A DNA stretch of 64,000 bases from Candidatus Phyllobacterium onerii (GTDB lineage Bacteria > Pseudomonadota > Alphaproteobacteria > Rhizobiales > Rhizobiaceae). The notes under the pieces were generated by a model. That model saw only the letters and a list, made by a program, of their open reading frames with translations, was not told the DNA's origin and made no database searches. How positions within the stretch are numbered: the stretch's first letter is position 1; each line of letters opens with the position of its first letter. The DNA is taken from the NCBI RefSeq assembly GCF_028331445.1, contig NZ_JAQMHX010000005.1, forward strand, positions 1 to 64,000, written 5' to 3'. Shown one piece after another: positions 17,486 to 35,536 of the stretch. The translations under genes were made by a program, and so were the position numbers.

Positions 17486-17891
17486 TGGCGGGCAACAGCG
17501 GGAGTTTACGGTGATGAACGAGCGCCAAATGCGCGCCGGCCTTTCGTATTATCTCGATCGGTGTGGCGATGTCCGCATACCAGCGCGTTGGCCGCTCAGT
17601 TCTGACCGTGCTTGGGGCACGCCTCGTCATGAAACCGCACGGCCGACATAAGCTCGCCGTTATTCCCGTTTTCGAACGCCGTAACGGCAACAACGCCGCC
17701 GTACCGGGCCATGCTTTCGAAGCCTCGTCAAAGTGACGGGATCAACTAAATCTTCAGAGCAGTTTTCCTTCCGTCCAGGGAACGATTGATGACCGGCGTG
17801 CGTCACCGGCTGTGCTATTGGCGAATTGCTGGCCGCTGAGGTAAACTTGATGTTGGCGCGCCTACCAAGTCCAGCGAAACGGACCGTTTTG
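17486..17891. other. About 400 bp without a convincing gene
   Basis: It holds short open frames only. One + strand frame around 17568-17733 reads MSAYQRVGRSVLTVLGARLV followed by VIPVFERRNG, which could be the tail of a decayed small protein. Upstream of the kinase start at 17892 there is no obvious promoter motif. Confidence 0.4.
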
Positions 17892-19388: not shown

Positions 19389-19422
19389 CCTTGACGATCG
19401 ATCCAATGGTTGTCCGGGGTCT

Positions 19423-19983: not shown

Positions 19984-20012
19984 CGGGTCCTCCGCAAAAT
20001 GGCCATTTCCCG

Positions 20013-20094
20013 GACATTTTAGGAAAACCGCTCAAAGCGATCCATACTACTGGAGGCTAGCCTTGGATGACTTCCGTCTAGGTTCAGTAGACCG
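20013..20094 (-). promoter_or_regulatory. Conserved upstream region of the AraC gene, copy A
   Basis: This non-coding stretch matches 33541-33622 upstream of the other AraC copy, including AGGAAAACCG, GCGATCCATACTAC and TGACTTCCGT(C)TAGGTTCA. Conservation of non-coding DNA between diverged copies suggests a shared promoter/operator. Confidence 0.5.
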
Positions 20095-20165
20095 TTTTGA
20101 AAGATTGAACGATCAATTCCGTCATTTCGTCATTTTGCTTTGGACGTCTCGCGCATGAAACGCGG

Positions 20166-20792
20166 TCAGGTGTTGGGGCGATCGGGATTGAGGCCCAACA
20201 GGTCGGCCATGCGCACCAGCTCCGGTAGCGACGACGCTCCCATCTTCTGCATGACGTGACTGCGGTGGAGCTTGACCGTGGCTTCGCTTATGCCGACGTC
20301 GGCAGCAATCTGCTTGTTAAGGCGACCTGAGATCACCCACTCCATAATCTCCCGTTCCCTCGAAGATAACTGGTCGAAAGCTGCCCGCAATTTTGCGAGG
20401 TGTTTCGATGCCGTCCGAGACGAGCGGTCTCTCTCCACCGCGGAGTGAATGGCGTCCACCAAATCCTGATGGCGAACCGGCTTGGTCAGGAATTCGACCG
20501 CCCCGCCTTTCATGGCGCGCACCGTCATGGGCACGTCGGCATGGCCGCTGATGAAAATGATGGGGAGGTCGACGTTCGCCTGCGAGAGGTCATCCTGGAA
20601 ATCCAGTCCGCTTCGACCCGGAAGCCTGACGTCCGTGACGATGCACCCCGGATCGTCCGTCGGGCCGTCGTTCCAAAATTCTTGTACCGAACCGTACGAC
20701 TTCACGCCAAGGCCCAACGACATAACCAATCCGCTCAGGGAATCGCGGATGCCGGCGTCGTCGTCGATGATCCTTACAATCGGCTCGCTCAA
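20166..20792 (-). CDS. FixJ-family response regulator, copy A
   Basis: 208 aa. The receiver domain has the acidic cluster IIDDDAG, phospho-acceptor Asp54 (IVTDVRLPGRSG) and Lys in FLTKP. The LuxR/NarL-type HTH at the C-terminus reads LSSREREIMEWVISGRLNKQIAADVGISEATVKLHRSHVMQKM. It starts with TTG at 20792, as does its paralogue at 34294. It is the likely DNA-binding output of the adjacent PAS kinase, and the conserved region between it and the AraC gene is a plausible target. Confidence 0.92.
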   Translation of the reverse strand: MSEPIVRIIDDDAGIRDSLSGLVMSLGLGVKSYGSVQEFWNDGPTDDPGCIVTDVRLPGRSGLDFQDDLSQANVDLPIIFISGHADVPMTVRAMKGGAVEFLTKPVRHQDLVDAIHSAVERDRSSRTASKHLAKLRAAFDQLSSREREIMEWVISGRLNKQIAADVGISEATVKLHRSHVMQKMGASSLPELVRMADLLGLNPDRPNT

Positions 20793-21216
20793 GTGATTGC
20801 CCGTCGGCTAAAGTTGACATCCGGGGAAAGAATACAACGTGACGACACATTTGGCGATGGCAAGGTTCAATCAGCACGATCGCGGCGAAATTGGATGGGA
20901 GAATTCGCCGTTCCAGTCTGCCGTCCTGACGAGCCTTCCAATCACTCGTGACCCGTCCTTCACGAAGAACATTCAGGGCATACTTTTGCTGTTCAAATTC
21001 CCAGCCCGGTCGCAGAGGCCCATGGTGGCCGAGAACCTCGACCAAAGCATAGGGACTGCTCAACCAAAGACATTGCTGAGGGCCGGGGATACGATTGCAT
21101 TTGCAGAACCGGAGCCTATCATCGATCCCGATAATTCCTAACGCGATCGCATGGCGATCAGCTTGGGACAATGTATCATCGTTGTAGCAGGCGATGACGA
21201 TCGGGGCTGGAAATCA
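20793..21216. other. Divergent intergenic region, copy A (no convincing gene)
   Basis: This lies between the divergent FixJ-type and receiver-only genes. Open frames on both strands (for example MTTHLAMARFNQHDRG... on +) are not conserved as protein in the second copy; only short stretches (TTGGCGATGGCAAG) are shared. It probably contains the two divergent promoters. Confidence 0.4.
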
Positions 21217-21591
21217 GTGGTAGAGACCAGGACGATTGCGGTGGTGGACGATGACCAGACGATCCGCCGGGCGTTGGATGACCTGATACGCGCCTGCGGC
21301 TATGGATCGGCATTGTTTGCGACCGCCGAAGAGTTTCTCGCCTACCGCGACCGCGCCAGCATCGACTGCATCCTGGTCGACGTCAAGATGCCCGGCATGG
21401 GGGGCGTCGAGCTCCAATTAAAGCTCAACGCCGATCCCCCGAAACCGCCGATGATCTTCATGACTTCCTATGCCGACGACAAGACGCGCTCGGCGGCAAT
21501 GGCGGGCGGCGCTTTTGCCTTTCTTGTCAAACCCATGGAAATCCACCGTCTGACCGACCTTGTGCGGATGGCGGTGGAGCAAAAAAACTAA
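21217..21591 (+). CDS. Receiver-only response regulator, copy A
   Basis: 124 aa with a single CheY-like receiver domain and no output: DDD acidic pocket at 11-13, phospho-acceptor Asp55 (ILVDVKMPGMGG), switch Thr in IFMTSYAD and Lys in AFLVKPMEI. GTG 21217 is chosen because similarity with the paralogue (TTG 34599) begins exactly here; the frame is open upstream to 21151. Such stand-alone receivers often act as phosphate sinks or as intermediates in a branched relay with a FixL-like kinase. It is divergent from the FixJ-type gene. Confidence 0.88.
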   Translation: MVETRTIAVVDDDQTIRRALDDLIRACGYGSALFATAEEFLAYRDRASIDCILVDVKMPGMGGVELQLKLNADPPKPPMIFMTSYADDKTRSAAMAGGAFAFLVKPMEIHRLTDLVRMAVEQKN

Positions 21592-21739
21592 ACTCAGCAA
21601 CCCCTCTTTCGAGGGTGTACTACTGGACCGGAGCAGCTAGAATGGCGGTTGGGGGGTTTGGAGCGAAACGTCTCTTCGATGTGGAGTTGAGTACCGCTCC
21701 GACCGATATTTTGTCTTCCACCGTCCTTGGGTGTTTCAA

Positions 21740-22051
21740 ATGGATGTAGACAGAGACAGCATTATCGAGATCGACCGTACTCTTTCCGCCCCATGGGCGT
21801 TGCCTTTGGACCTGACTGTTGACGGTCAAGACCGCATGCCGGTCACGGAGTCACCTCCGGCCCTGGCGAATGAGGTGCACAACATAAATCTGCTGCTCGG
21901 TGCGATCGTCATCGGAGCGCAAGCCAACGTCCAGTGGCTCAAGTCGAGCCAACCCAATCTGGAGGCGGCACAACGCACTTCCGCACGCCTGCTGGCCCAG
22001 ATTCAAAATCTGTGCGAAATGGTGGATGGATTGAGATCCGGCCAGACGTGA
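21740..22051 (+). CDS. Stand-alone DHp-like (histidine-kinase dimerisation) protein, copy A
   Basis: About 103 aa. After a variable N-terminus, VHNINLLLGAIVIGAQANVQWL followed by ..PNLEAAQRTSARLL aligns without gaps to VHEVNQPITAIVISGGACLTWL followed by ..PPELDKVRTSVEQMV of the nearby PAS kinases. It is therefore the two-helix DHp hairpin with no PAS and no ATPase domain. The phospho-acceptor His is kept (about residue 47), but the adjacent acidic residue is Asn and the QP of HEVNQP is lost. It might be a phosphotransfer or dimerisation partner that tunes the kinase. A second copy lies at 35207. ATG 21740 or GTG 21731 could be the start. Confidence 0.7.
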   Translation: MDVDRDSIIEIDRTLSAPWALPLDLTVDGQDRMPVTESPPALANEVHNINLLLGAIVIGAQANVQWLKSSQPNLEAAQRTSARLLAQIQNLCEMVDGLRSGQT

Positions 22052-22140
22052 GTGTCGGGAGCTTCTCCTTTCGGGACGGCCACGACCGAAGTTTTGCTCC
22101 GCCTCCCAAAACAACGCCGAACCAACGTCCGGCTTTTTGC

Positions 22141-25100
22141 TTGATTGCCTTTTTATCGAAACTGGTGCGGAATTTCCTTCATACCGCAACTGCGATTGCG
22201 GCAATTCTGGTGTCGTGTGCTGCAGGTGCGAACCAAAATGTGTCGGTGGCCGAAGTGGCCCCAGACGTTATCAAGATGAAAGTCGAGGATCGTGACGACA
22301 TCCGCTTTCGGAGAATATCACTATCCCAGGGACTTTCCCAAACCCGCGTGTCGCAGATTGTTCAAGATGATGATGGTTATCTGTGGTTCGGCACGCAGCA
22401 CGGCGTCAATCGCTATGACGGTCAGGACTTTCATGTATTCAAACATGAACTGGGCAAACCCGAGAGTCTAAGCGGCATCTTTATATATTCCCTCTTCAAG
22501 GACCGCAACGGAACCATCTGGGTAGGCAGTGATCAATTCCTCGACGCGTTCGACAAGACGACAGGAACTTTCAGGCACTATCCGCTCGACCCGGCGAACC
22601 CGACGGTCATCCACATCAGTGAAGACTCCGAAGGCAACCTGTGGCTCTCGACCAGCCAGGGGCTGTTTCGTCTTGATCCCGCCACAGGGAAAAGTGTCAG
22701 GTTCGGACACGATGCAAAGGATGCGGCAAGCCTCTCCAGTGACGATATCAAGTCGACGGGAACCGACAGTCGGGGCGTGTTCTGGGTGGCGAGCAACGCC
22801 GGGTTGGAAGCATTCGACAGAGCCAGCGGCAAAGTCTCGGTGAGAATACCTCTCCGTGAGGAGGTCAGGGAATTCAAGTTTCACGAGGATGCGCACGGCA
22901 CCTTCTGGATCATATACGGATCGGGCAACGGATTGGGTATTTATGACCGGAATACCAACAGGCTCGTCAGATATTCCTTCGAGGGTGTCGCCGACAACAG
23001 CCTGACCGGCGTCTATGATTTGCTGGAGGCGAGCAACGGCAATGTCTGGCTGGCGACCATGGGCGCGGGACTGTTGTCGTTCGACCGGGAAAAATTCCGT
23101 TTCATCAGGTACACGAACGATCCCAACGATGTGCAAAGCCTTGCGGAGAACAGGGTTATCGCCTTGTACGAGGACGCCGAAGGCAACATCTGGACAGGCC
23201 TTCACGCAAACCCACCGAACGTTTTCCCCAAGAAAGCGCCGCCTTTCCAGAAATTGTGGCCATACCCGAGGCATCCGGACAAGCTCGGCGAATCGCTTGT
23301 CAATGCCATCTTTGAAGATCGATACGGTGCAATCTGGATCGGTGCAGGCGGTGCCCTCAACCGGATCGATACGGTTGCCAGAACAATGGAGCCTTTTGCT
23401 CCGGCGGGGCCGGGGACATCGATCGAGGTTCTGTCGATTACCGAAGACCCGTCAGGAACCCTTTGGATAGGCACTCTCGGTGGTGGGCTTTATGCCTTTG
23501 ATCAGAAAACGAAAGCATTCAGCTCGTATCGTCACGATGCCGAGAACCCGCAAAGCATCAGCAGTGACGTTGTCACCCGCGTCCTCGTCGACACATCAGA
23601 CGAGCTGTGGATCACCACCTGGAACGGCATCGACAGGTTTTCACCAAGCACGGGCAAATTCACCACCTTCAAAAGGAATCCTGCGGCTAACGCGGAGACC
23701 TATTTCTCGGTCATCAAGGACGAGCGCGGAATGCTCTGGCTGGGCACGACGGCTGGACTGGTGCAGTTCGACCCGGGTGAGGCCACCTTCAAGGTGTACA
23801 AGCACGACCCCGACAATCCTGCCAGCCTCAGCAACAACACCGTGAACACCATTCATACGGGCGGCAACGGGGTGCTGTGGGTCGGCACGCAAAACGGCCT
23901 CAACCGCTTCGACGTGGCGCACGGTACGTTTGACCACTTCTTTTCCAAGGACGGACTGGCGGGCGACGTTGTGAGTTGCCTGCTCGAAGACCACGACGGA
24001 CATCTGTGGATGAGCACCAACAAAGGCGTCTCGCAAATGGACGCGACGAGCCTGAGCTTTCAAAACTATAGCATGGCGGACGGTTTACCGGGAGACGACC
24101 TCACCGGATGGAACGCCTGCAGCACGGGCCAACACGACCGCTTCTATTTCGGCGGCTTCGCCGGCGCTGTGGCTGGAAAGAGCGCCGTTGCCGATCACGA
24201 CACGGCCTACGTGCCGCCCGTGGTGCTCACGGGACTCAAACTATCCGACCTTGAGGGAAATACCCAGTCCGTAGATGCCGCGGCCGCATTGCCGAACGCC
24301 GTGACGCTGCCCTACAACCGGAATCAGCTTGCGGTGTCATTCTCCGCATTGAGCTACAAAAGTCCCGACACCATGCAGTTCCGTTACATGCTTTCCGGAT
24401 TGGATGGACAGTGGCACAGAGCAGGGGACAACGAACGCACGATAAGCTATGCCGCTCTCCCTTCGGGAACCTTTACCCTGATGATTCAGGCTTCAACCGG
24501 CATGGGAGAATGGGTTGCACCCGGCACCGAGCTTCACATCGAGGTGCTGCCCCCATGGTGGTCAACATGGTGGTTCAGGCTGGCGGCACTCATTGCCCTA
24601 TGCGCCACCCTGGCCGCACTTTATCGCTATCGGTTGGCCAAAGTTTCCGCCCAATACAGGATCCGGCTCGAAGAGCGGATCAACGAAAGAAACAGATTGG
24701 CGCGAGAGCTGCACGATACTTTGCTGCAAACCTTCCAAGGGTTGATTTTTCGAATGCAGGCCGCACGTCACATGCTCCCTGGTCGTCCGGGGGAGGCGGG
24801 GAGAATGCTCGACCTCGTCCTCAACAAGAGCGACGAAGCCATCATCGAAGGCCGGAACGCGGTTCAAGCTCTGCGTGATCCCACCCAAGGTGACGATGTC
24901 ATCGGCTCTGTGAAACGTCTCGGCGAGGAACTTGCCAAGGTAGCGTCTGGAACCATTGACTTCAGCGTGAAGATATTCGGCCGGCCAATGGATTTCGATC
25001 CGAGCATCCGGCACGAGATCGTTCGCATCGTTTGCGAAGCCTTGCGGAACGCCTTCAAGCATTCCGGAGCGTCAACGATAGAATGCGTTTTCGCGTTTTC

Positions 25101-25335
25101 GGAGGCGGACTTGCGCGTGCGCGTCCATGACAACGGCGTTGGTTTAGGAGATAAAAACGGTGCGGCACTGGGTGCGAAAAAATGCTGGGGCATCAGAGGT
25201 ATGCGCGAAAGAGCGGAGAAAATCGGTGCAGACTTGGTCATCAAAAGCTCGGCTGGATTTGGCACGACCGTCGAATTGTCCGTCGGGTCGCAAACGGGTC
25301 CTTCGCGTGCGTGGTCGGGGGAGCCAAAGCAATGA
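22141..25335 (+). CDS. Two-component sensor kinase with periplasmic beta-propeller (Reg_prop / Y_Y_Y)
   Basis: About 1,064 aa. An N-terminal hydrophobic signal (ATAIAAILVSCAAGA) is followed by a long array of Reg_prop repeats, about 40-45 residues each with a D-x-x-G-x-L/I-W-x-G core (for example DDDGYLWFGTQHGVNRYD). Then come a Y_Y_Y domain (YNRNQLAVSFSALSYKSPDT...FRYMLSGLDGQW), one membrane helix (WWFRLAALIALCATLAALYRY), HisKA_3 with acceptor His in ARELHDTLLQTFQG, and an HATPase domain. It is a membrane sensor whose propeller probably binds a carbohydrate-like or other periplasmic ligand. The start is uncertain (TTG 22141 or GTG 22165). It overlaps its regulator gene by 4 nt. Confidence 0.88.
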   Translation: MIAFLSKLVRNFLHTATAIAAILVSCAAGANQNVSVAEVAPDVIKMKVEDRDDIRFRRISLSQGLSQTRVSQIVQDDDGYLWFGTQHGVNRYDGQDFHVFKHELGKPESLSGIFIYSLFKDRNGTIWVGSDQFLDAFDKTTGTFRHYPLDPANPTVIHISEDSEGNLWLSTSQGLFRLDPATGKSVRFGHDAKDAASLSSDDIKSTGTDSRGVFWVASNAGLEAFDRASGKVSVRIPLREEVREFKFHEDAHGTFWIIYGSGNGLGIYDRNTNRLVRYSFEGVADNSLTGVYDLLEASNGNVWLATMGAGLLSFDREKFRFIRYTNDPNDVQSLAENRVIALYEDAEGNIWTGLHANPPNVFPKKAPPFQKLWPYPRHPDKLGESLVNAIFEDRYGAIWIGAGGALNRIDTVARTMEPFAPAGPGTSIEVLSITEDPSGTLWIGTLGGGLYAFDQKTKAFSSYRHDAENPQSISSDVVTRVLVDTSDELWITTWNGIDRFSPSTGKFTTFKRNPAANAETYFSVIKDERGMLWLGTTAGLVQFDPGEATFKVYKHDPDNPASLSNNTVNTIHTGGNGVLWVGTQNGLNRFDVAHGTFDHFFSKDGLAGDVVSCLLEDHDGHLWMSTNKGVSQMDATSLSFQNYSMADGLPGDDLTGWNACSTGQHDRFYFGGFAGAVAGKSAVADHDTAYVPPVVLTGLKLSDLEGNTQSVDAAAALPNAVTLPYNRNQLAVSFSALSYKSPDTMQFRYMLSGLDGQWHRAGDNERTISYAALPSGTFTLMIQASTGMGEWVAPGTELHIEVLPPWWSTWWFRLAALIALCATLAALYRYRLAKVSAQYRIRLEERINERNRLARELHDTLLQTFQGLIFRMQAARHMLPGRPGEAGRMLDLVLNKSDEAIIEGRNAVQALRDPTQGDDVIGSVKRLGEELAKVASGTIDFSVKIFGRPMDFDPSIRHEIVRIVCEALRNAFKHSGASTIECVFAFSEADLRVRVHDNGVGLGDKNGAALGAKKCWGIRGMRERAEKIGADLVIKSSAGFGTTVELSVGSQTGPSRAWSGEPKQ

Positions 25336-25961
25336 CGGCGCGCGACCCCATTCGTGTGCTCATGGCCGATGATCATCCGCTGATCAGGGAGGGCATTTCC
25401 GCGCTAGTGTCCAGCCAATCCGACATGGCTATCGTCGGGGAGGCTTCGAACGGGATGGAAGCAACTGCAATGTACGAGGCTCTAATGCCCGACGTTGTTC
25501 TCCTCGACCTGCAAATGCCGGCCATGGGCGGGTTCGAGGCGATAACTGCGATCAAGCGCTTAAAACCGTCGGCTCGGATCATTGTGCTCACGACCTATGA
25601 GGGAGACCATCTGGCCGGCCGCGCGATCAGTCTCGGGGCCAGGGCATACCTTTTGAAAAGCGCCGTGCGCCGAGAGCTGTTGAACACCATACGCGCTGTC
25701 TTCCGCGGGCAGAAACACATCGATGCAAAGGTCGCGGAAAACCTGTCACATCATGTCGGCGAAAGTCCGTTGACCGACCGGGAAGCGGCGGTTCTTTCGC
25801 TCATAGCGGGCGGAAATTCCAACAGGGCGGTCGGCGTAGCCCTCGCTATCACCGAGGAGACGGTGAAGGGGTATGTCAAAAACATACTCGCAAAACTGAA
25901 GGCCAAAGATCGAACCCATGCCGTCGCACTGGCGATCAAGCGGGGGATAATCGAACTTTGA
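25332..25961 (+). CDS. NarL/FixJ-type response regulator partner of the propeller kinase
   Basis: 209 aa from ATG 25332, overlapping the kinase stop as ATGA. The receiver has ADDHP, phospho-acceptor Asp in VVLLDLQMPAMGG and Lys in AYLLKS. The C-terminal LuxR HTH reads LTDREAAVLSLIAGGNSNRAVGVALAITEETVKGYVKNILAKL. HisKA_3 kinases pair with NarL-type regulators, so this and the upstream gene form a complete system. The NTF2-like gene 70 nt downstream on the same strand is a candidate target or operon member. Confidence 0.93.
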   Translation: MTARDPIRVLMADDHPLIREGISALVSSQSDMAIVGEASNGMEATAMYEALMPDVVLLDLQMPAMGGFEAITAIKRLKPSARIIVLTTYEGDHLAGRAISLGARAYLLKSAVRRELLNTIRAVFRGQKHIDAKVAENLSHHVGESPLTDREAAVLSLIAGGNSNRAVGVALAITEETVKGYVKNILAKLKAKDRTHAVALAIKRGIIEL

Positions 25962-26031
25962 TGTCTGCTCCGGCCAGATCGCAATTGGGCATTGACCTAG
26001 CCGGAATGGTTCAGTTCTACAGGAGAGATAC

Positions 26032-26445
26032 ATGAGGCGAAATTCAGTCGAAATCGTCGAGCATTTCTGGCGAGAAGTTTGGCAACTGAAAAATCCCGAC
26101 GCGATCGACGATCTTGTGACGGAGGATTTTGCGATTACGTCGGGGGGTGTGGAGATAAACACCCGGGAAGCATTCAAAAAGTGGGTGGCCGCATTTCTGT
26201 CCAGCATCAACGATTTCAAGTTCGAGGTCATCGAGTCCTTTCAGAACGAGGAAGGCGACCGGGTGGCCTCGCGTTGGCGCGTTACCGGCAGAAACAACGG
26301 GTTCATGGGGACTGAGCCGACGCAGTTGCCGATCGACATGACCGGAACGGCCGTCTGGCATGTCAGGGAGGATGGCTTGCTCCAGCACAACTGGGTCGAG
26401 CGTAACTCACATGAGGTGCATCGCAGCTTGACGAAAAAGCCATGA
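26032..26445 (+). CDS. NTF2/SnoaL-like protein
   Basis: 137 aa, a single NTF2-fold domain of the nuclear-transport-factor-2-like / ester-cyclase (SnoaL) superfamily: VEIVEHFWREVWQLKNPDAIDDLVTEDFAITSG...NTREAFKKWVAAFLSSINDFKFEVIESF...VASRWRVTGRNNG...GTAVWHVREDGLLQHNWVERN. The fold holds small hydrophobic ligands; the function here is unknown. Clear ribosome site AGGAG at 26019. Its first half exists again in the chimeric gene at 16754, so this locus gives the intact reference. It is followed by the conserved unknown gene at 26720. Confidence 0.85.
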   Translation: MRRNSVEIVEHFWREVWQLKNPDAIDDLVTEDFAITSGGVEINTREAFKKWVAAFLSSINDFKFEVIESFQNEEGDRVASRWRVTGRNNGFMGTEPTQLPIDMTGTAVWHVREDGLLQHNWVERNSHEVHRSLTKKP

Positions 26446-26719
26446 CCATGGCGCGTTGACGACGCTTGATCATGTCGACAGGAGATACCCCACGCCAGCA
26501 GACAGACTGCCTCCGGACGGGATTCCGTGCAATAGTACATAGGTATCGCCCGCGCATGGCGGCGACAAAACTGCTCTCCCAAACCCGCCTTTATTCGCGA
26601 TTAGTCCGTTCCAATCGTGCCGCGTTTGTCCAATACCAGCAGGGGGGTGATGGTTCATCGTATAGCCTCAACTGTCGCGAAACCACGACTGCCGCAAATT
26701 TGAGCGAGTGATCAGGCTC

Positions 26720-27556
26720 ATGAACAGTCTTTTGAACGAGGTCCTGACGGCCCACGGGGGCCTGAAACGCTGGAACGAGTTCAACTCGGTCGAGGCGACT
26801 ATCGTGACCGGAGGAACGTTGTGGGGCATGAAGGGCCTGGTGCAGGACCCGGCTCCCCGGCGGATGACCGTGTCCCTGCATGACGTCCATGCTTCGGTCA
26901 GGCCGTTCGGGGGGCCCAATCAACGAACGTACTTCACTCCCAACCGGATCGCGATCGAGACGGACGACTGCAATGTGGTGGCGGAACGCCAGGACCCGCG
27001 TGCGTCGTTCGAGGGGCACGGCAGGACGACCCCATGGGACCCGCTGCAGAGGGCTTATTTCAACGGCTATGCCCTATGGACCTATCTGACGACGCCGTTC
27101 CTCCTCAATCTGCCCGGCGTCAAGCTTGAGGAAATGAGGCCCTGGGTGGAGGGCGACCAGGTCTGGCGGGTGCTCAGGGCAACCTTTCCGTCCCACATCC
27201 CCACCCATTCGACGGTTCAGGACTTCTACTTCGGCGCGGATTTCCTGTTGAGACGGCACGACTACACCGTCGACATAGCGGACGGCCTGACAGCCGCGCA
27301 ATTGGTCAACGACTATACGGAGGTTCAGGGGCTTGGCCTTCCGACCAAGCGCCGTGCCTACTACCGGGGCAGGGACGGTCGGCCCACCGATACGCTTCTG
27401 GTGTCGATCGACCTCAGCGATGTGCATTTTAGCCGCGGCAAGGACAGCGTCTCTATTCGCGCCGATGCTTCCAACGATGCGCTATCTATTCAAGCAGACA
27501 CGGACCCACCGCGGGGGCCGCATCAATCCGATATTAAATTGGAAACAGCACTTTAA
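26720..27556 (+). CDS. Conserved protein of unknown function, 278 aa
   Basis: I do not recognise a named family. It begins MNSLLNEVLTAHGGLKRWNEFNSVEATIVTGGTLWG, a pattern seen in LolA/outer-membrane-lipoprotein-sorting-like folds in which a helix is followed by strands, but here without a signal peptide. Aromatic-rich strands follow (PWDPLQRAYFNGYALWTYLTTPFLLNLPG, QDFYFGADFLLRRHDYTVDIADG). The start is ATG 26720; GTG 26708 is an alternative. A decayed copy of its middle lies at 1185-1470. It sits after the NTF2-like gene with a 274-bp gap in which I see no gene. Confidence 0.7.
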   Translation: MNSLLNEVLTAHGGLKRWNEFNSVEATIVTGGTLWGMKGLVQDPAPRRMTVSLHDVHASVRPFGGPNQRTYFTPNRIAIETDDCNVVAERQDPRASFEGHGRTTPWDPLQRAYFNGYALWTYLTTPFLLNLPGVKLEEMRPWVEGDQVWRVLRATFPSHIPTHSTVQDFYFGADFLLRRHDYTVDIADGLTAAQLVNDYTEVQGLGLPTKRRAYYRGRDGRPTDTLLVSIDLSDVHFSRGKDSVSIRADASNDALSIQADTDPPRGPHQSDIKLETAL

Positions 27557-28040
27557 CCGTCGCAATTCGGGAGATCTCAATCACCAAAGTTTCAACGTCG
27601 AACGTGATTGATCTGCCGACGGCGGCCCATCTGACTGCTGGTTACTCGCTCTTTTGGGTGCGTTCGTAATATTCGGCGGCCTGTCGCCTTCGGCAACGCT
27701 GCACGATACGGCACACGATGCACGCCACTCGTACGGCTTCCCCTGCCATTAGCATTCCTCGCGCGGAGATCGCTCTTGCTCAAGTCATACATGTGCCACA
27801 GACACGAAAAGCCGCCGGTAGAGGGCGGCCTCGACCAGAGCGCTGTTCTGCCATGGGCCGTCGACCCCACAGATGCGGAGAAGCTTTGGGATCTCAGCGA
27901 ACGCCTGACCGGAACGAAGGAGTTGTGGTTTGGCTTGATGACGGACAATGCCATGCCCGCGCACGGTTCCACCTGCCACATCGTCGGTTTCGTCCATCTC
28001 CTTCATGATCATACCCTTTCGAAGGCCGCAGATCATTCGG
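27557..28040. other. Gene-poor gap with a possible SDR C-terminal relic
   Basis: No intact gene. The + frame at about 27840-27915 reads VLPWAVDPTDAEKLWDLSERLTG, which resembles the last residues of short-chain dehydrogenases (DPx-A-x-x-LW-x-LSE). The rest of that domain is absent, so it would be a fragment. Confidence 0.35.
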
Positions 28041-28886
28041 TCAGCAACTGATTGTTCGGCGGGTGGCAATTCGGTTCATGCGATCGGAACTTCGCGCGAA
28101 CGAACCCTCGGATGCTCCCGCCAGGAGATCGACGGCTTGCCAGACCAGTCGGCTGGCGAAGCCGGCATCCCGCCACATGCGTGTTCGGTGTTGCATCGAC
28201 ATTTTTTCTGAAAGCGCGGTGGTTTCCAACTCTTCCAGCGAACGCTTCAGGATCAGTTCCGCAGCATCGATCTTGGAGCTCGCTTCGCCGATCAGCAGAT
28301 GTGTTGCCGCGGCGTCTGCCTGTGAGGTGTAGTCGGTGAAAGCTATAGCGCGCTTGGTTGATTTTTGGAGAAAGAGGTCAAGCGCCGCCTTCGCCATTCC
28401 CAAACCCGGCAGGGCCAGATTGGCCCGGCAGGGCCAGATTGACTGCAAAAAATGCAACATACGGGAACCGATATAGCGGTTCACCAGCCACGTGCGTCGA
28501 CGCGTAGTCTTGCCGGCGGGCTCTGCTAAGGAGAGCGATCCGCTCCTCCGGGACGAAGACATCCGCGACCCTGACGCTGGTTCTGCCGCTGCCGCGCAGG
28601 CCGATCGTGTCCCCGTCATCGACCAATTTAACTTGCGAAGCCGGATCAGGGCTGCCCCGCGGTCGACGACATTCCCCGCATCGTCAAGGACCGGGATGCC
28701 GAGCACGACCCATCCTGCGTGCTCGACGCCGCTGTTGAAAGCCCACAGTCCGTCCTCGATGACGACTCCGCCGTCTGCGCTGCGCACCTTTGCCAATCGG
28801 GGGTTGAGAACCGCCGCGGTCCGAAAGTTGCCGCCTGCGGCAAATACTTCGTCGACGACTTCCTTCGGGTAGAATGTGGTTGCCAT
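28041..28886 (-). pseudogene. Broken flavin-dependent monooxygenase / acyl-CoA-dehydrogenase-like gene
   Basis: The order and content match the acyl-CoA-dehydrogenase-like hydroxylases (HsaA/DszC/HpaB-C type). There is an N-terminal part (FYPKEVVDEVFAAGGNF...DGLWAFNSGVEHAGWVVLGIPV..DRGAALI) in one frame, a middle part (VDDGDTIGLRGSGRTSVRVADVFVPEERI...YASTHVAGEPLYRFPYVAFFAVNLALPG) in a second frame, and a C-terminal part (GMAKAALDLFLQKSTKRAIAFTDY..LIGEASSKIDAAELIL...WRDAGFASRLVWQAVDLLAGASEGSFA) back in the first frame. One frameshift lies near 28650. The other coincides with a 19-bp tandem duplication at 28405-28442. The first 60 or so residues and the end after DRMNRI are missing, so the gene is dead. 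Confidence 0.8.
28405..28442. repeat. 19-bp tandem duplication inside the broken monooxygenase gene
   Basis: Two adjacent copies of a 19-nt unit starting CCCGGCAGGGCCAGATTG (28405-28423 and 28424-28442, differing only at the last base). Nineteen is not divisible by three, and the duplication sits where the reading frame changes, so it looks like a slippage event that shifted the frame. Confidence 0.85.
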
Positions 28887-29106
28887 GGTATCCACTTCGA
28901 GGATGTTTTTTTGCCGAGCGTCAAGAGAGGCCCCTAAATTGGATGCGGTGTAGACGGTGACCGCCGGCCCTGCCCGCGCACGCCGTAAGAGATCGGCGTG
29001 CGCATTGGTTCGCTCCTCGGCCGGACGCGATCGGCTGTACACAGAAAAGGACTTCGTGTGCTTCAGCGGGCGCTGCACCGACATTACCTACTCGCGGACC
29101 GCCGAG

Positions 29107-29763
29107 ATGATGTGGGCCGACTTTTCCGCATGGCTCGTCACCGTCGGCCTGATCATGGGAGTTCTCGCCTTCATCGCCACTCTGGTCGATTTTCTCGGTG
29201 AACCCCGCGTGCGTGTTCAGACATCAGTCCGGATCCATTTTGTCGGCAGCATAATCCTGTTGGTTCTGGCCACTTTCAACATGTTCATCCACACCCACGA
29301 CGCCTGGACTTCGGTTGTCCCGTGGGGTCTGACCCTTTCCGCGATAAGCGTTGTCGTCCTCCTGGTTACCGAGTGGATGGGTTTCGTCATGGTTTTCCGC
29401 GATGGCGTAGGCGTCTCGGCACCGTCGAACCGTCCATTGTTGATCGAGAACCGAAGCCAGCCGGTTGACGTCACTCGAGGGTCCGGCGCTTGGGATAGAA
29501 GGAAGGATGCTCCGATGGAATGGATTCTATATCGTTATTGGGTTTATCAAACGCTCCGTTACGACTACGGCGGTGTGGATGCCTGGAGATACAGTGCGGG
29601 GTACAAGCAGCACATGCTTGACGGGCTGACCCCGGAGATGGCTGTCGAATGGGAAAAGACCTTCGGCGTTGTCGAACGACCGTGTTTCAGGGGTGTGTTT
29701 GACGATCGGCGTCAAAATCTCCGCGGTTATTTTTTATCCAACTCGGGGACTTTGATGAGATAG
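29107..29763 (+). CDS. N-truncated DUF2231 membrane protein with an extra C-terminal part
   Basis: Residues from ATG 29107 (MMWADFSAWLVTVGLIMGVLAFIATLVDFLG) through RIHFVGSIILLVLATFNMFIHTHDAW and WGLTLSAISVVVLLVTEWMGFVMVF are a DUF2231-type integral membrane domain with three to four helices. Family members have an additional N-terminal HPIHPM...FP helix. Here similarity resumes only at TDITYSRTAEMMW (about 29077), and the part before it is scrambled, so the gene seems truncated at the 5' end. The last 82 residues, from an internal ATG 29515 with GGAAGG upstream, are soluble, unrecognised and rich in Tyr and Trp. They could be a separate small gene. Confidence 0.55.
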   Translation: MMWADFSAWLVTVGLIMGVLAFIATLVDFLGEPRVRVQTSVRIHFVGSIILLVLATFNMFIHTHDAWTSVVPWGLTLSAISVVVLLVTEWMGFVMVFRDGVGVSAPSNRPLLIENRSQPVDVTRGSGAWDRRKDAPMEWILYRYWVYQTLRYDYGGVDAWRYSAGYKQHMLDGLTPEMAVEWEKTFGVVERPCFRGVFDDRRQNLRGYFLSNSGTLMR

Positions 29764-29846
29764 TCATGAAAACCTTGATGTTCGTCTTCTTTCCACAGCG
29801 TGATGCCCCGTCCGGTTGGGTTTTCGGATTCGAATGCTGTTATTAG

Positions 29847-30071
29847 GTGGATTGTTTTGAGGAACAGGACCAAAACATCGGGACAGAGTCCAGCGGCTTC
29901 CGGATCAAGAGCACGGGCGAAGTCATTCCCTATGCCGACAAGCGGGTGAAGATGTCCAAGGACGCCAAGTACCACAGATGCACGAGGCTCGGTGATCCGA
30001 AGATGCAGAAGTCGATCTGCATTTATGTGCCGAACAGTGGCTCGTGGTCAGAGGTGGATTCCTGCCCCTGA
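29847..30071 (+). CDS. Small Cys-containing hypothetical protein
   Basis: 74 aa from GTG 29847: it begins VDCFEEQDQNIGTESSGFRI, then KSTGEVIPYADKRVKMSK, and ends ICIYVPNSGSWSEVDSCP. The composition looks genuinely coding and secreted-protein-like (three or four Cys), but no signal peptide precedes it. A possible original N-terminus (ATGCTGTTATTAGGTGG... at 29834) is in a different frame and hits a stop, so it may be a truncated or frameshifted small exported protein. Confidence 0.4.
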   Translation: MDCFEEQDQNIGTESSGFRIKSTGEVIPYADKRVKMSKDAKYHRCTRLGDPKMQKSICIYVPNSGSWSEVDSCP

Positions 30072-30254
30072 CGCTGTACACCAGGACTCAGCATCGTGAG
30101 AGATGAGAGCCGGATCGGTTGATTCCGACCGGGCTCCATTGTCGCTTCGTGCTACAGCTGCTGACTCGAAAGTACGATCGATGCGTTCCCGACACCAAAT
30201 AATACGCTGCTCGGGTACGGAGCCTGGCTGGTCCCAAATGCTTTTTTCGGGGGC

Positions 30255-30757
30255 TTAGCCGTGGAGCTTTGCCGTGATTTCGGCGACCCGCTTTCCCTGA
30301 AACCTTGCACCTTCAAGTTCCTGTGCCGAAGGCTGGCGCGATCCGTCACTGTCGGCCATTGTTGTCATGCCGTAAGGAGAGCCACCACGGACGACGTCCG
30401 TTCCCATCTGCGCCTGGTAGGCATAAGACAACGGCACGATGATCATGCCGTGATGCTGGAGTTGAGACTGGGTCGACAGGATCGCCATTTCCTGGCCGCC
30501 ATGCTGGGTCGCCGACGATGCCATCACCGAGCCGACCTTGTCGATGAGGGCTCCTTTGGTCCAAAGCCCGCCCGTCTGGTCGATGAAGTTTTTCATCTGG
30601 GCCGACATGCCGCCGTAGCGCGAAGAAATTCCGAAGATGATCGCATCATAATTTTCAAGCTCTGCAGACTCTGCCACTTCAGCCTTTTGGTCGAGCTTGT
30701 AGTGATAAGCCTTTGCAACGTCCAATTTATTTTGGCAAACCAATTCTTGGAATCAGG
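30255..30757 (-). pseudogene. wrbA: 5'-truncated NAD(P)H:quinone oxidoreductase (WrbA-like)
   Basis: From [20 protein letters not shown] onward the sequence follows Wrb[53 protein letters not shown], then [60 protein letters not shown]. Intact WrbA has about 199 aa. Here the first 45 or so residues, including the FMN phosphate-binding loop (YYSxxGH), are missing and an in-frame stop precedes position 30757. It is therefore a non-functional 3' fragment. The breakpoint is next to the small gene ending at 30780. Confidence 0.8.
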
Positions 30758-30779
30758 CTAGTCTGGCGCAAGGGCCTGA

Positions 30780-31031
30780 TCATGCACTTTGTGCTTCGTG
30801 AAAGGCCGGACTCTCATATGTTTCAAGGTCTTCAAAAACCTTGATTTCTACCGCGGTTCCGTCGAATTTGGCCACCTTATCGAAGATTTCTTGAAGTTTG
30901 GCCTCGCGAGGAAGCGAAAAGGACCGGGTTTCCAGTAGGTTGAACACCAAGGGCCGGCCGTCCTGTCTGCTTTCCCCGTTATCCAGCACTCTGTGCATTG
31001 ACGCGGATACGATGTACCGAGCATAGGGCAT
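30780..31031 (-). CDS. Hypothetical protein, 83 aa
   Basis: Small soluble protein from ATG 31031: MPYARYIVSASMHRVLDNGE, then SRQDGRPLVFNLLETRSFSL, ending ..EIKVFEDLETYESPAFHEAQSA. The regular alternation suggests a compact alpha/beta fold. I do not recognise it. It is separated from the truncated wrbA by 22 nt on the same strand and diverges from the kinase gene that begins at 31410. Confidence 0.55.
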   Translation of the reverse strand: MPYARYIVSASMHRVLDNGESRQDGRPLVFNLLETRSFSLPREAKLQEIFDKVAKFDGTAVEIKVFEDLETYESPAFHEAQSA

Positions 31032-31409
31032 GAGCGATCTTTTCCTAGTATGATGTTGAAGACGGAAATCGGACCAATTCGGATAACTTTGCTGTGTCGA
31101 AGAGCTCCCAATATTATACCGCAAGTAGTCCGCCGAGAACAAATGGGAAAACACTTGGGAAGTCGCAGATGCTCCCACTGCAGGCAATCGCTTTATAATC
31201 CCCGATGTATCGCCAAATCCTCTAATACAAAACTTCAAATACGCCACGTTCCTACAAGATCGCGGTGGCAATTTATAATGTACACTTGCGCTCCCAACGG
31301 GAACTCAAATGCCGATCAGGTCGATAGACGGGATGCTCTGCCGGGGAGCGGCGTCTTCAGTCATGATGCTGGCGCAGCCTATATGGCGAGGCGGAACGGG
31401 GACTGTCCG
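31032..31409. other. Intergenic region upstream of kinase copy B
   Basis: About 380 bp, AT-richer than its surroundings. The frame of the kinase is open to 31050, but the residues before 31410 have no counterpart in copy A and look non-coding. It presumably contains divergent promoters. Confidence 0.4.
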
Positions 31410-32900
31410 ATGAGCGAAAATTCTTTGATTGATAATCAGTTTCGAACTGCAATCGACATGATACCCACGCTGGTTTGGGCTGCCCGACCGGACGGCTCCG
31501 CCGAATTCTTCAACAGGCGCTGGCTCGAATATACCGGACTTACAGTGGATGAGGCGAAGAATTGGGGCTGGGTGTCCGCACTCCATCCCGACGAGGCCAC
31601 AAACCTCAGGGAAACATGGAACACCATCATGGCCTCCGGCGAACCGGCGGAGGCTGAAGAGCGTTTGCGGCGGTGGGATGGTGAATACCGCTGGTTTCTG
31701 TTTCGCGCGGTACCGTTGCGCGATGAAGCCGGACAGGTTGTCAGATGGTACGGAACGAACACCGATATTGAACACAGGCGGCAATCCGAGCAGAGGACCG
31801 AAGAAGCCGAGAAGCGATTGCGTGCGGCGATCGACACCATTCCTGCCATGGTCTGGACGTGTCTGCCTAACGGCCTATGTGATTTCGTGAACGAGCGCAT
31901 GCTGTCCTACACGGGATTGTCTGCTGAGGAGATGCGAGGAACGGGATGGAAGGCAATGGTGCATCCCGACGATATGGAGGAGCATCTCCAGGCCTGGACG
32001 AGTTCGGCGGAGACCGGCAACTCCTTTGAATTCGAATCCCGCTTGCTCGGAGCGGACGGACACTGTCGATGGTTTCTGCACCGTGCAGAGCCGATGCGCG
32101 ACGAGTCAGGAAACATTGTCAAATGGTACGGAACGAACCTTGACATCGACGACCGCAGGCGGGCGGAGCAGGAACTGCGGACGGCTCATGCGGACCTTGC
32201 CCATGCCATGCGCGTGGCATCGCTCGGAGAGATGGCGGCCTCCATCGTCCATGAAGTAAACCAGCCCCTCACGGCCATAGTGATCAGCGGTGGCGCATGC
32301 TTGACCTGGTTAGGCAAGGACCCGCCTGACCTCGACAAGGTGCGCACATCGGTCGAACAGATGGTGGAGGCCGGCGAGCGGACAGGCGACGTGGTGCAGC
32401 GGCTTCGCGCGCTTGCCAAAAAGGGCGATCCGCAAAAGCAACTTCTTGCGATCAACGAAGTCATTGAAGAATGTCTGGCCATGGTCGAGCGGGAGCTCGA
32501 CAATCATGGCGTGACGGTGCGAATGGAACTTGGCAACTGCTTACAGCCACTCCTCGGCGATCGGGTGCAGTTGCAGCAAGTGATCATCAATCTGATCCTG
32601 AACAGTGTTGACGCAATGGGGGCAGATGCAAACCGCCCGCGACAGCTGCTGGTCCGATCGGAGCAGACCGACAGAGATCAGGTCATCGTCGCCGTGCAGG
32701 ATTCTGGCATCGGTATCGATCCGAAAGATTTGGACCGTCTCTTTGACGCCTTTTTTACGACGAAGCCCGACGGCCTCGGCATGGGGTTGCGGATATGCCG
32801 CACGATCATCGAAGACCATGGCGGCATGCTGTGGGCCTCCCGGAACGCCGATACTGGAGCGACATTTCAATTTAGTCTGCCCCTACAAACCAAGGTCTAG
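31410..32900 (+). CDS. PAS-PAS sensor histidine kinase, copy B
   Basis: 496 aa, full-length paralogue of the kinase at 17892 with the same layout: PAS/PAC at about 10-125 and 138-253, acceptor His281 in IVHEVNQPLTAI, and HATPase motifs NLILNSVDAM, DSGIGIDPKDL and GLGMGLRICRTI. The DHp and ATPase regions are more alike than the second PAS domain (LCDFVNERMLSYTGLSAEEM here against NDFHNQRLLSYTQFSPDQAQ), which suggests that the two kinases may sense different signals. ATG 31410 is preceded by GGGGA. Confidence 0.9.
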   Translation: MSENSLIDNQFRTAIDMIPTLVWAARPDGSAEFFNRRWLEYTGLTVDEAKNWGWVSALHPDEATNLRETWNTIMASGEPAEAEERLRRWDGEYRWFLFRAVPLRDEAGQVVRWYGTNTDIEHRRQSEQRTEEAEKRLRAAIDTIPAMVWTCLPNGLCDFVNERMLSYTGLSAEEMRGTGWKAMVHPDDMEEHLQAWTSSAETGNSFEFESRLLGADGHCRWFLHRAEPMRDESGNIVKWYGTNLDIDDRRRAEQELRTAHADLAHAMRVASLGEMAASIVHEVNQPLTAIVISGGACLTWLGKDPPDLDKVRTSVEQMVEAGERTGDVVQRLRALAKKGDPQKQLLAINEVIEECLAMVERELDNHGVTVRMELGNCLQPLLGDRVQLQQVIINLILNSVDAMGADANRPRQLLVRSEQTDRDQVIVAVQDSGIGIDPKDLDRLFDAFFTTKPDGLGMGLRICRTIIEDHGGMLWASRNADTGATFQFSLPLQTKV

Positions 32901-32927
32901 ACCGCCGATCGAAAGCAGGCAGTGTGC

Positions 32928-33509
32928 TTAATTTGACAGGAGACGGTTCCTGCGCCAGCCATACGGTGTCTCTCCGACCGCGCGGCCGAAGACCCGCGTC
33001 AGGTGCGACTGATCCGAAAATCCGCAGGCAACCGCAACTCTGCTCAAGGGTTCACGCGTCGCCAGCATCATTCGCTGGGCGAGGGAGACACGTTCCTTCA
33101 AAATATAGGCGTGCGGGCAAATGCTGAACGAGGCTTGGAATGCCCTGTTGAAATGGCTGACGCTAAGACCGCAGACGCGCGCCAGCTCGCGGGTGGAAAT
33201 TGACCGATCCAGTTTGTCGGAGACATGCCTTTTTACCCGGCGGATTTGCCAGGGTGCCAATCCGCCCGCCACATTGCGCGCCAATCCGCCCGCCATATTT
33301 CGAGCGTCGGACTGGCACTTGGCCCCTTCAACGTGGAATATCTCGATCGCCTTTTGAACACAGGTTTCGGCGACCTGATCTTCCAGCTGCCAGATCGACG
33401 CCACCGCAGCCAACAAGCCACGGACGATTTCGTGATTGAACTGCTCCGAGTTGATGCCGTCGGACGGCGCGTGGCCGAAACCGGCCGACTGTGTGAGCGC
33501 GTATGCCAT
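32928..33509 (-). CDS. AraC-family regulator, copy B
   Basis: 193 aa from ATG 33509 (MAYALTQSAGFG), matching copy A at 19423 through the whole AraC double HTH (RVKRHVSDKLDRSISTRELARVCGLSVSHFNRAFQ...GFSDQSHLTRVFGRAVGETPYGWR). The linker before the HTH carries an 8-residue tandem duplication (ARNMAGGL/ARNVAGGL) absent from copy A and encoded by a 24-bp direct repeat at 33256-33303. It is convergent with kinase copy B. Confidence 0.9.
   Translation of the reverse strand: MAYALTQSAGFGHAPSDGINSEQFNHEIVRGLLAAVASIWQLEDQVAETCVQKAIEIFHVEGAKCQSDARNMAGGLARNVAGGLAPWQIRRVKRHVSDKLDRSISTRELARVCGLSVSHFNRAFQASFSICPHAYILKERVSLAQRMMLATREPLSRVAVACGFSDQSHLTRVFGRAVGETPYGWRRNRLLSN
33256..33303. repeat. 24-bp in-frame tandem duplication in AraC copy B
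   Basis: Two adjacent units beginning GCCAATCCGCCCGCCA (33256-33279 and 33280-33303) with a few differences. The repeat keeps the frame and adds eight residues to the linker relative to copy A. Confidence 0.85.
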
Positions 33510-33540
33510 AGGGGTCCTCCGTTGAAAGGTCCATTTGCAG

Positions 33541-33622
33541 GACATTCTAGGAAAACCGTTCGAAGCGATCCATACTACCGTCGGCTGATCTTGGGTGACT
33601 TCCGTATAGGTTCAATAGACTG
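33541..33622 (-). promoter_or_regulatory. Conserved upstream region of the AraC gene, copy B
   Basis: Counterpart of 20013-20094, with the same order of blocks: GACATTCTAGGAAAACCG, GCGATCCATACTAC, TGACTTCCGTATAGGTTCAATAGAC (in part). It probably holds the promoter and regulator site shared by both AraC genes. Confidence 0.5.
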
Positions 33623-33667
33623 TTGTGCAGAATTGGAAAACCGATTCTCTCATTTCGTCAAACTTCG

Positions 33668-34294
33668 TCAGGTGTTGCGGCGATCGGAATTGAGACCCAA
33701 AAGCTCGGCCATGCGCACCAGATCCGGCAGCGACGACGCTCCCATCTTCTGCATGACGTGGCCGCGGTGCAGCTTGACCGTGGCTTCGCTGATGCCGACG
33801 TCGGCGGCAATTTGCTTGTTCAGGCGACCGGCGATCACCCACTCCATGATCTCGCGTTCCCTTAAAGACAACTGATCGAAGGCTGCCCGCAATTTCGCGA
33901 GATGTTTCGATGCCGTCCGCGCTGAACGGTCTCTCTCCACCGCGGCGTGAATCGCGTCCACCAAATCCTGATGGCGAAGCGGCTTTGTCAGGAATTCGAC
34001 CGCTCCGCCTTTCATGGCGCGCACCGTCATGGGGACGTCGGCATAACCGCTTATGAAAATGATGGGAAGGTCGACCTTCGCCTGTGTCAGGTCATCCTGG
34101 AAATCCAGTCCGCTTCGGCCGGGAAGCCTGACGTCCGCGACGATGCATCCGGGATCGCCGGTCGGGTTGTCGTTCCAGAATTCCTGAACCGAACCATATG
34201 CTTTAACGCCGAGACCCAGCGACATGACCAATCCGCTCAGTGAATTGCGGATGCCAGCGTCGTCGTCGATTATCCTTACAATCGGCTCGCTCAA
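33668..34294 (-). CDS. FixJ-family response regulator, copy B
   Basis: 208 aa, TTG start at 34294 as in copy A. The receiver has IIDDDAG, Asp54 (IVADVRLPGRSG) and FLTKP; the HTH reads LSLREREIMEWVIAGRLNKQIAADVGISEATVKLHRGHVMQKM. The recognition helix is identical to that of copy A, so both regulators should recognise the same DNA site and cross-regulation between the two modules is likely. The frame is open upstream to 34492, but those residues are absent from copy A. Confidence 0.92.
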   Translation of the reverse strand: MSEPIVRIIDDDAGIRNSLSGLVMSLGLGVKAYGSVQEFWNDNPTGDPGCIVADVRLPGRSGLDFQDDLTQAKVDLPIIFISGYADVPMTVRAMKGGAVEFLTKPLRHQDLVDAIHAAVERDRSARTASKHLAKLRAAFDQLSLREREIMEWVIAGRLNKQIAADVGISEATVKLHRGHVMQKMGASSLPDLVRMAELLGLNSDRRNT

Positions 34295-34598
34295 GTGATT
34301 GCCCCGGTCAAATTGTCGTAAGGGGAAGATACAGCGTGACGGAAGACTTGGCGATGGCAAGATCGTTCTTCCTTCAGCGGCACGATGGGCCGCTAGCCGA
34401 AGTCCTCGCGCCATATTTGCAAACTCTACCAAAGTATAGAGATACTCAACCAAAGACATCGCCGGCGGCCAGCGGTACGGTTGCATTCGCAAACGCGAGG
34501 AATATCATCGCGTCTTTATAATCCCTTCCGTTTATTCGCTCGCGGGGATGGATTGCAGAGGCGGAGCGCTGAGCGATGATGGTCGGGGCTGGAAACCA

Positions 34599-34973
34599 TT
34601 GGAGAAGACCAGGACGATAGCGGTAGTGGACGATGACGAGACGATCCGCCGGGCGTTGGATGACCTGATACACGCGTGCGGCTATGGATCGGCTCTGTTT
34701 GCAACCGCCGAAGAGTTTCTCGCCTTCGACGGCCGCGCCGGCGTCGACTGCATCCTGGTCGACGTCAAGATGCCCGGCATGGGGGGCATCGAGCTTCAGT
34801 TGAAGCTCAACGCCGATCCCCCGAAACCGCCGATGATCTTCATGACTTCAAATGCCGATGACGGAACGCGAGCGGCGGCGATGGCGGGCGGCGCTTTTGC
34901 TTTCCTGCGCAAGCCCGGGGAAATCCATCGCCTGACCGATTTCATGCGACTGGCCTTACAGCAAAAACCGTAG
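34599..34973 (+). CDS. Receiver-only response regulator, copy B
   Basis: 124 aa from TTG 34599, the same length as copy A. It has DDDETIRRALDDLIHACGYG, phospho-acceptor Asp55 (ILVDVKMPGMGG), a TSNADD switch region and Lys in AFLRKPGE. There is no output domain. It is divergent from FixJ copy B by about 300 bp, as in copy A. It is likely to take phosphate from the PAS kinase in parallel with the FixJ-type protein. Confidence 0.87.
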   Translation: MEKTRTIAVVDDDETIRRALDDLIHACGYGSALFATAEEFLAFDGRAGVDCILVDVKMPGMGGIELQLKLNADPPKPPMIFMTSNADDGTRAAAMAGGAFAFLRKPGEIHRLTDFMRLALQQKP

Positions 34974-35206
34974 AGTATAAACTCGGCCGCCTTTTAGCGG
35001 GTTATGCTGCTGGGAGGAGGGCGGTCGGCTCAATGAACACCTTCGGTCGAACTGGAGGTTTGCACGGCCGCGGGAGGAGTCATTGAAGAATTGCCGCCAT
35101 CGCAGGTGGAGACGGAGGAAATTGTAAAAGGCCTAGTTTATCTTTGTTTTGGGAGGCGGAGCAAAACGTCGGCCTTGGCCGTCCCGAACGGAAAAGCTTC
35201 CGGCAC

Positions 35207-35536
35207 TCACGTCCGGCCGCTTCGCAGCCCATCCACCAGTTCACACAGATCTTGAATCTGCGCCAGCAGTCGTTCGGATGTACGCTGTGCAGCTTCCGGG
35301 TTGGGTTTGGCGGACGTGAGCCATTGGACGTTGGCTTGCGCTCCGAGGACGATGGCTGTGAGCAGCAGATTTATGCCGTGGACATCATTCGTCGTAACCG
35401 CTGGACGACCAATTCTGGGCATGCAGCCTTGACCGCTTAAAGCCAGTTCCGGGTGCGTCGCCCGTTGGGAATAAGGCGATGCATCCAATGCCGAAGCATT
35501 TTCCGACATTGAACTCGCGGCAGAATTCAGCGTCAT
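35207..35536 (-). CDS. Stand-alone DHp-like protein, copy B (inverted relative to copy A)
   Basis: 109 aa; ATG 35536 with a strong site AAGGAGAA. The C-terminal 55 residues (VHGINLLLTAIVLGAQANVQWLTSAKPNPEAAQRTSERLLAQIQDLCELVDGLRSG) match copy A (21740) closely, while the N-terminal 45 differ almost completely. The His of the H-box is kept; the next residue is Gly instead of the acidic residue of kinases. In copy A this gene reads in the same direction as the receiver gene; here it is opposite, and flanking non-coding DNA (about 35140-35206) is inverted with it. The good ribosome site and selective conservation argue for a working gene. Confidence 0.72.
   Translation of the reverse strand: MTLNSAASSMSENASALDASPYSQRATHPELALSGQGCMPRIGRPAVTTNDVHGINLLLTAIVLGAQANVQWLTSAKPNPEAAQRTSERLLAQIQDLCELVDGLRSGRT

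Follow-up and report, generated by a model that had tools for sequence, protein, structure and literature searches.

Stand-alone proteins related to the dimerisation hairpin of HPK4-type histidine kinases, linked to a Reg_prop kinase and a LuxR-type regulator in Phyllobacterium and other genera

Spo0B and ChpT are dimeric histidine phosphotransferases, kinase-like hairpins outside a working kinase; both carry phosphate on a histidine, and in ChpT the hairpin is joined to a second domain resembling an ATPase (PMC3433190). FixT and Osp are alphaproteobacterial single-domain receivers that inhibit FixL and CckA and act with feedback (PMC7078487, PMC12471899), and Sda and KipI are anti-kinases described among structurally unrelated inhibitors (PMC12471899). 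Here we describe a family of small DHp-like proteins that is represented twice, by S1 and S2, in a 64,000-nucleotide stretch of Candidatus Phyllobacterium onerii (contig NZ_JAQMHX010000005.1, positions 1 to 64,000; hereafter the window), and we tentatively propose that S1 works by binding. Like Spo0B and ChpT, S1 and S2 have a kinase-like hairpin and would be expected to dimerise, but they have no second domain and the histidine is dispensable in their family. With FixT and Osp, S1 shares its small size and probably a place on a two-component pathway in alphaproteobacteria, and it may also take part in feedback; those proteins are receivers whereas S1 is a kinase hairpin, the mirror-image arrangement. 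Sda and KipI are likewise small and bind partners to influence two-component signalling, a likeness that would hold if the binding reading is right; to our knowledge neither of them derives from a kinase hairpin.

S1 (21740..22051, forward strand) is a protein of 103 amino acids with H47 at the phospho-acceptor position, followed by N48; its paralogue S2 (35207..35536, reverse strand) has 109 amino acids, with H53 followed by Gly. In both, the QP of the kinase box is lost, as the initial annotation of this DNA had noted, and LL stands in its place. The two are 68% identical over 80 amino acids and stop after helix 2. Their N-termini are dissimilar, that of S1 being predicted to be disordered, which agrees with the annotation's picture of diverged N-termini on a conserved hairpin. 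The domain search found no HATPase, PAS or Response_reg domain and no significant Pfam match in either protein. S1 has an alternative GTG start at 21731, and a 35-codon open reading frame in another frame (21642-21749, following the upstream motif described below) ends nine bases inside it; the start given here is provisional.

By sequence, S1 and S2 are homologous to the DHp hairpin of kinases of the HEVNQP group, which we take to be the HPK4 type. The window holds two such kinases, the PAS-PAS-HEVNQP kinase K1 with its HATPase_c domain (17826..19388, forward) and its paralogue K2 (31050..32900, forward, open reading frame as listed, with a probably later start). Pairwise BLASTP of S1 and S2 against them, run with filters and composition correction off and a search space of one protein, gave expectation values (E) of 4e-6 to 6e-5 with every match inside the DHp region, and in none of the four pairs did any of 200 shuffles reach the best ungapped score. 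Together with the domain search, this bears out the claim of two stand-alone DHp-like proteins lacking PAS and ATPase domains. The claimed gap-free alignment with the neighbouring kinases holds for S1 and K2 over 58 amino acids and for the profiles, but the remaining three pairs aligned only with gaps. In profile-profile comparison the family scored 98.6% against 16 HPK4-type DHp regions over 62 gap-free columns; a 12-member alignment without members G038 and G699 scored 97.8%, and three members that lack the histidine scored 94.9% on their own. Against the five HisKA_3 hairpins of the neighbouring Reg_prop kinases the value was 0.1%. Among 11 members scanned, only G038 matched Pfam HisKA (PF00512; E 1.7e-5), and no HATPase match was found in these members or in S1 and S2. 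The family thus resembles the HPK4 kinase DHp in its hairpin and in single residues listed below, and differs from HPK4 kinases in lacking PAS and HATPase_c, in an eroded H-box and in the loss of the histidine in two lineages. S1 is better matched by another kinase of its own genome than by K1 or K2, and is therefore not a recent copy of either.

AlphaFold2 models of single chains contain the two-helix hairpin expected from the initial annotation, at a predicted local distance difference test score (pLDDT) of about 95, both in S1 (helices 40-68 and 74-100) and in the His-less protein of Rhizobium sp. BK251 (helices 50-75 and 81-103). Confident prediction is limited to this hairpin: residues 4-34 of S1 are of low confidence, the N-termini of both models lie mostly below a pLDDT of 50, and the whole models average 72.9 (S1) and 70.4 (BK251), with predicted template modelling scores of 0.54 and 0.52. 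Neither contains an ATPase-like second domain such as that of ChpT. Two-helix hairpins are common and match many unrelated structures, so the fold adds little by itself.

Two protein searches returned 13 sequences, from Phyllobacterium types (P. endophyticum and P. zundukense being named), Rhizobiaceae bacterium n13 / Ferirhizobium litorale and Rhizobium sp. BK251; where the source names them, they are hypothetical or uncharacterized proteins. The truncated P0010 and P0003, a near copy of S1, were excluded from later counts. The protein-search set, S1 and five loci reached through the Reg_prop kinase (G699, G790, G786, G799 and G038) make up 17 stand-alone sequences. A tree of 36 rows and 58 columns sets sixteen of these apart by a branch with support 99/98; its columns are few, and it carries a warning of long branches, G799 and the G699 group among them. 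The remaining one, the G038 open reading frame, falls among the kinases and may, judging from its placement, be an independent fragment. It lies downstream of a Reg_prop/LuxR pair (L106, 7977-8306), encodes 109 amino acids with the box HDMQDP, and may represent an independent or an intermediate case.

Substitution rates at nonsynonymous (dN) and synonymous (dS) sites, calculated by NG86 on the core region unless stated otherwise, indicate purifying selection on most of the family cores compared. Between S1 and the P. zundukense copy, dN is 0.034 and dS 0.334 (dN/dS about 0.10), against 0.035 and 0.205 for the neighbouring Reg_prop kinase in the same series; S1 and S2 differ by 0.143 and 0.513. 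Three proteins of genus g48 with Thr in place of His (G699, G790 and G786) have dN of 0.045-0.108 and dS of 1.08-1.89, the latter close to saturation, with dN/dS of 0.04-0.07. The common branch of 16 of the 17 sequences and the purifying selection on most cores support the view that S1 and S2 are stand-alone proteins rather than kinase fragments, and the relatives are, by the same placement, not all fragments of kinases. On a P. zundukense plasmid (L064, 13230-13706) a second copy is truncated, leaving the family within the first helix; the receiver beside it is split over frames, and the upstream motif described below is exact there.

Through the small protein, seven intact copies were reached and read with their surroundings, those of P0004 to P0008 lying outside this count. 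Four of the seven (window S1, P. zundukense, G100 contig 43 and BK251) stand directly before a Reg_prop kinase and a LuxR-type regulator. In the window, the Reg_prop / Y_Y_Y / HisKA_3 / HATPase_c sensor kinase occupies an open reading frame at 21934..25335 (forward) that opens inside S1 and has in-frame start codons beyond S1 from 22141 on, and the ATG of the LuxR/NarL-type response regulator (25332..25961, forward) overlaps its stop codon. At each of the five new loci that the Reg_prop kinase led to, a stand-alone DHp-like open reading frame lies at most 1.4 kb from the kinase, and at four of them (all but G038) it is a family member. The nine Reg_prop-linked loci span at least four genera. 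The kinase itself is rare, with 4 of 394 genomes of the taxonomic family (E 1e-40) and 1 of 397 in the order sample (E 1e-45). Within genus g48 it occurs in 4 of 46 genomes; the G699 small protein as query (E 0.001) matched 9 of 45, as short frames of 96-175 amino acids in the same four genomes as the kinase and as frames of 346-646 amino acids in the other five. The kinase is split over several frames in P. zundukense and G799, possibly by sequencing errors, whereas both small protein and regulator keep unbroken frames there. The initial annotation had placed such proteins next to HEVNQP kinases; this is true of the window but is not a general rule, the recurrent neighbours being the Reg_prop (HisKA_3) kinase and the LuxR-type regulator. 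A kinase of 1874 amino acids with an HDVMQP box (L060, 6628-12252) lies near two stand-alone hairpins, and its long N-terminal part resembles, by eye, a protein kinase/ATPase fusion.

The copies at eight of the nine linked loci also share an upstream 17-bp motif, CCCCTCTTTCGAGGGTG, with a palindromic core CCCTC-tttc-GAGGG. In the window it lies at 21601..21617 (forward), ending 122 bp upstream of the S1 ATG. It precedes the small gene by 92-143 bp in all nine copies at eight loci, the truncated P. zundukense copy included, and is exact in eight of them, that of G100 contig 43 having two mismatches. Within four mismatches it is absent from the 400 bp before S2, P0013, P0012 and the G038 open reading frame. 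At up to one mismatch, the site upstream of S1 is the sole match of the core CCCTCTTTCGAGGG in its own genome, and the 14-bp core has 22 matches in six genomes, against 8 for the reversed control. Seven of the eight exact core matches lie at small-gene loci. The eighth, in BK251 (L110, 9462), has one mismatch in the 17-bp motif and stands before a gene that by eye resembles an aldehyde dehydrogenase, possibly a second target of the same regulator; an open reading frame nearby resembles, again by eye, window positions 26032-26445. In G699 (exact) and in G790 and G786 (with one mismatch apiece), the motif recurs close to where the LuxR-type gene begins.

The phospho-acceptor histidine is kept in 12 of the 17 stand-alone sequences, S1 and S2 included. 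It is replaced by Glu in P0011, by Gln in P0014 and by Thr in G699, G790 and G786, two groups on the tree (Glu/Gln and Thr). Because the histidine has been lost in two lineages, and the Thr lineage evolves under the low dN/dS given above, phosphotransfer, which the annotation had put forward among the roles, cannot be the common function of the family. The rest of the H-box is eroded too: among 14 sequences Gln+4 occurs in none, Pro+5 in one (G038), Asn+3 in 10 and Glu+1 only in the His-less G699, position +1 being otherwise Asn, Asp, Gly, Ser, Leu or Ala. The family as a whole thus has neither the H-E-x-N-Q-P box of histidine kinases nor an invariant phospho-His as in Spo0B and ChpT. Other kinase residues are kept in the same 14, namely Trp+19 (14), Pro+25 (13), Ala+15 (13), Arg+36 (12) and Leu+6 (11).

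We also examined where along the hairpin kinase residues persist. Nine representatives, among them G038, were compared at 33 columns that kinases conserve. From H+6 to H+36, the loop-side part, 74 of 135 cells hold the residue of the kinases, against 31 of 162 elsewhere (Mann-Whitney p 0.0017, for a split picked after the column table had been seen). In the ChpT/CtrA complex and in a CckA model, the receiver docks on the half that faces the helix connector (PMC9981736), and regulators are described as binding helix 1 below the His (PMC3433190). The loop-side half, the receiver-docking part in the known complex, is thus better kept than the rest.

The explanation we favour, while putting its chance somewhat below even, is that S1 is a binding-only pseudo-DHp, an HPK4 dimerisation hairpin that has become a gene of its own, has no ATPase, has lost most of the H-box and works by binding. 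The family protein would then probably tune signalling by binding partners and not by carrying phosphate. S1 would form a four-helix bundle and offer its loop-side half to a receiver, in the first place the receiver domain of the LuxR-type regulator encoded beside it, or a single-domain receiver where the locus has one. Two points make a receiver the likeliest partner: the docking part of the hairpin is better retained, and at linked loci the LuxR-type regulator is always among the neighbours. Docking could hold the receiver away from its kinase or stabilise one of its states. The motif found before the small gene recurs, in three genomes, close to where the regulator gene begins; on this ground S1 probably works in feedback, its expression being turned on by the pathway that it tunes.

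Several points weigh against this proposal. A purely binding role does not require the histidine that most members retain. The planned comparison of five catalytic columns with the other 28 conserved columns gave little difference (mean retention 0.29 and 0.37), the clear contrast coming from the later split. Three of the seven intact copies (S2, P0012 and P0013) lie away from the Reg_prop/LuxR pair and have no motif; two of them are on G100 contig 19, one at a contig end, and all three occur in genomes with a linked copy. P0011 and P0014, compared as whole proteins, are weakly constrained (dN 0.472, dS 1.237). The LuxR-type regulator is a putative binder of the motif, a link that we infer, and receiver docking is argued by analogy with other kinases. 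No case is known to us in which an HPK4-type hairpin is paired with the regulator of a HisKA_3 kinase.

The surroundings of S1 and S2 bear on the alternatives. The window reads K1, an AraC-like gene, FixJ-like response regulator 1 (20166..20792, reverse), the single-domain receiver Rec1 (21151..21591, forward), S1, the Reg_prop kinase and the LuxR-type regulator. A second block at 31-35.5 kb comprises K2, an AraC-like gene, FixJ-like response regulator 2 (33668..34492, reverse, as listed), the single-domain receiver Rec2 (34548..34973, forward) and S2. The stretches 17826-22051 and 31050-35536 are paralogous, with S inverted in the second, and their kinases are 76%, AraC-like proteins 81%, FixJ-like regulators 91%, receivers 85% and small proteins 68% identical.

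One alternative keeps phosphotransfer for the His-bearing lineages: S1 and S2 would take phosphate from Rec1/Rec2 or the FixJ-like regulators and pass it on, like a Spo0B or ChpT with no second domain, and His-less members would keep a residual role. We consider this unlikely, although the distribution of the histidine speaks for it. It is present in most members and, among the loci read, is kept at the four that lie close to an HPK4-type kinase, a FixJ-like regulator and a single receiver (S1, S2, G100 contig 19 and G799) and lost at five that have no FixJ-like neighbour (BK251, G100 contig 43, G699, G790 and G786). These loci are not independent, however, and an HEMSQP kinase and a receiver do lie near the copies in G699, G790 and G786, while G311, and G038 outside the lineage, keep the histidine with no FixJ-like neighbour in the stretch read. 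The eroded H-box and the strong selection that continues in the Thr-bearing trio also argue against it.

Less probable again is a dominant-negative partner: S1 and an HPK4-type kinase, K1 or K2 for instance, would join in mixed four-helix bundles, and the autophosphorylation of the kinase would be lowered or redirected. HPK4 hairpins are its closest homologues, and such kinases are close by, two in the window and one near the copies in G699, G790, G786, G799 and G100 contig 19; but no K1/K2-like kinase lies within 19-20 kb around the small gene in BK251 and G100 contig 43, none is annotated in 24 kb of P. zundukense, and S1 has its closer match in another kinase of its genome. We give as little credence to a reading in which the LuxR-type regulator has S1 as an output but S1 serves outside two-component signalling, its hairpin reused as a generic dimer or adaptor. 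The upstream motif, the freedom of the N-terminus and much of the hairpin to change, and the many unrelated structures that helical hairpins match would suit such a role, but the co-occurrence with a sensor-regulator pair and the better retained loop-side part would not. A decaying remnant of a duplicated kinase is very improbable, for despite the truncated second P. zundukense copy and a G038 open reading frame that falls with the kinases, possibly as a fragment of this kind, the common lineage of 16, the low dN/dS in most comparisons, the recurrent place and the upstream motif all oppose it.

A described family of stand-alone DHp proteins was found neither in Pfam, NCBIfam or PDB sequences, where only the outlying G038 matches Pfam HisKA, nor in the titles and abstracts listed by searches of open-licence papers on DHp-like, DHp-only, stand-alone or truncated kinases and on Reg_prop/LuxR rhizobial systems, which within those bounds agrees with the initial annotation. 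Returning to the binding-only pseudo-DHp, we suggest, with slightly more reserve than for S1 itself, that the family may be a new class of two-component regulator, in which the receiver-docking part of the hairpin has become an independent gene, has twice been freed from the phospho-His, and is tied by synteny and a shared operator to the Reg_prop/LuxR module as a feedback element. If this is true, a kinase hairpin persisting as a separate protein after losing its histidine would mirror the receiver-type anti-kinases FixT and Osp, and would show the docking surface to be a useful regulator by itself. The natural series of His, Thr, and Glu or Gln at one position, at the same kind of locus and behind the same motif, would make the need of a DHp for phosphorylation directly testable.

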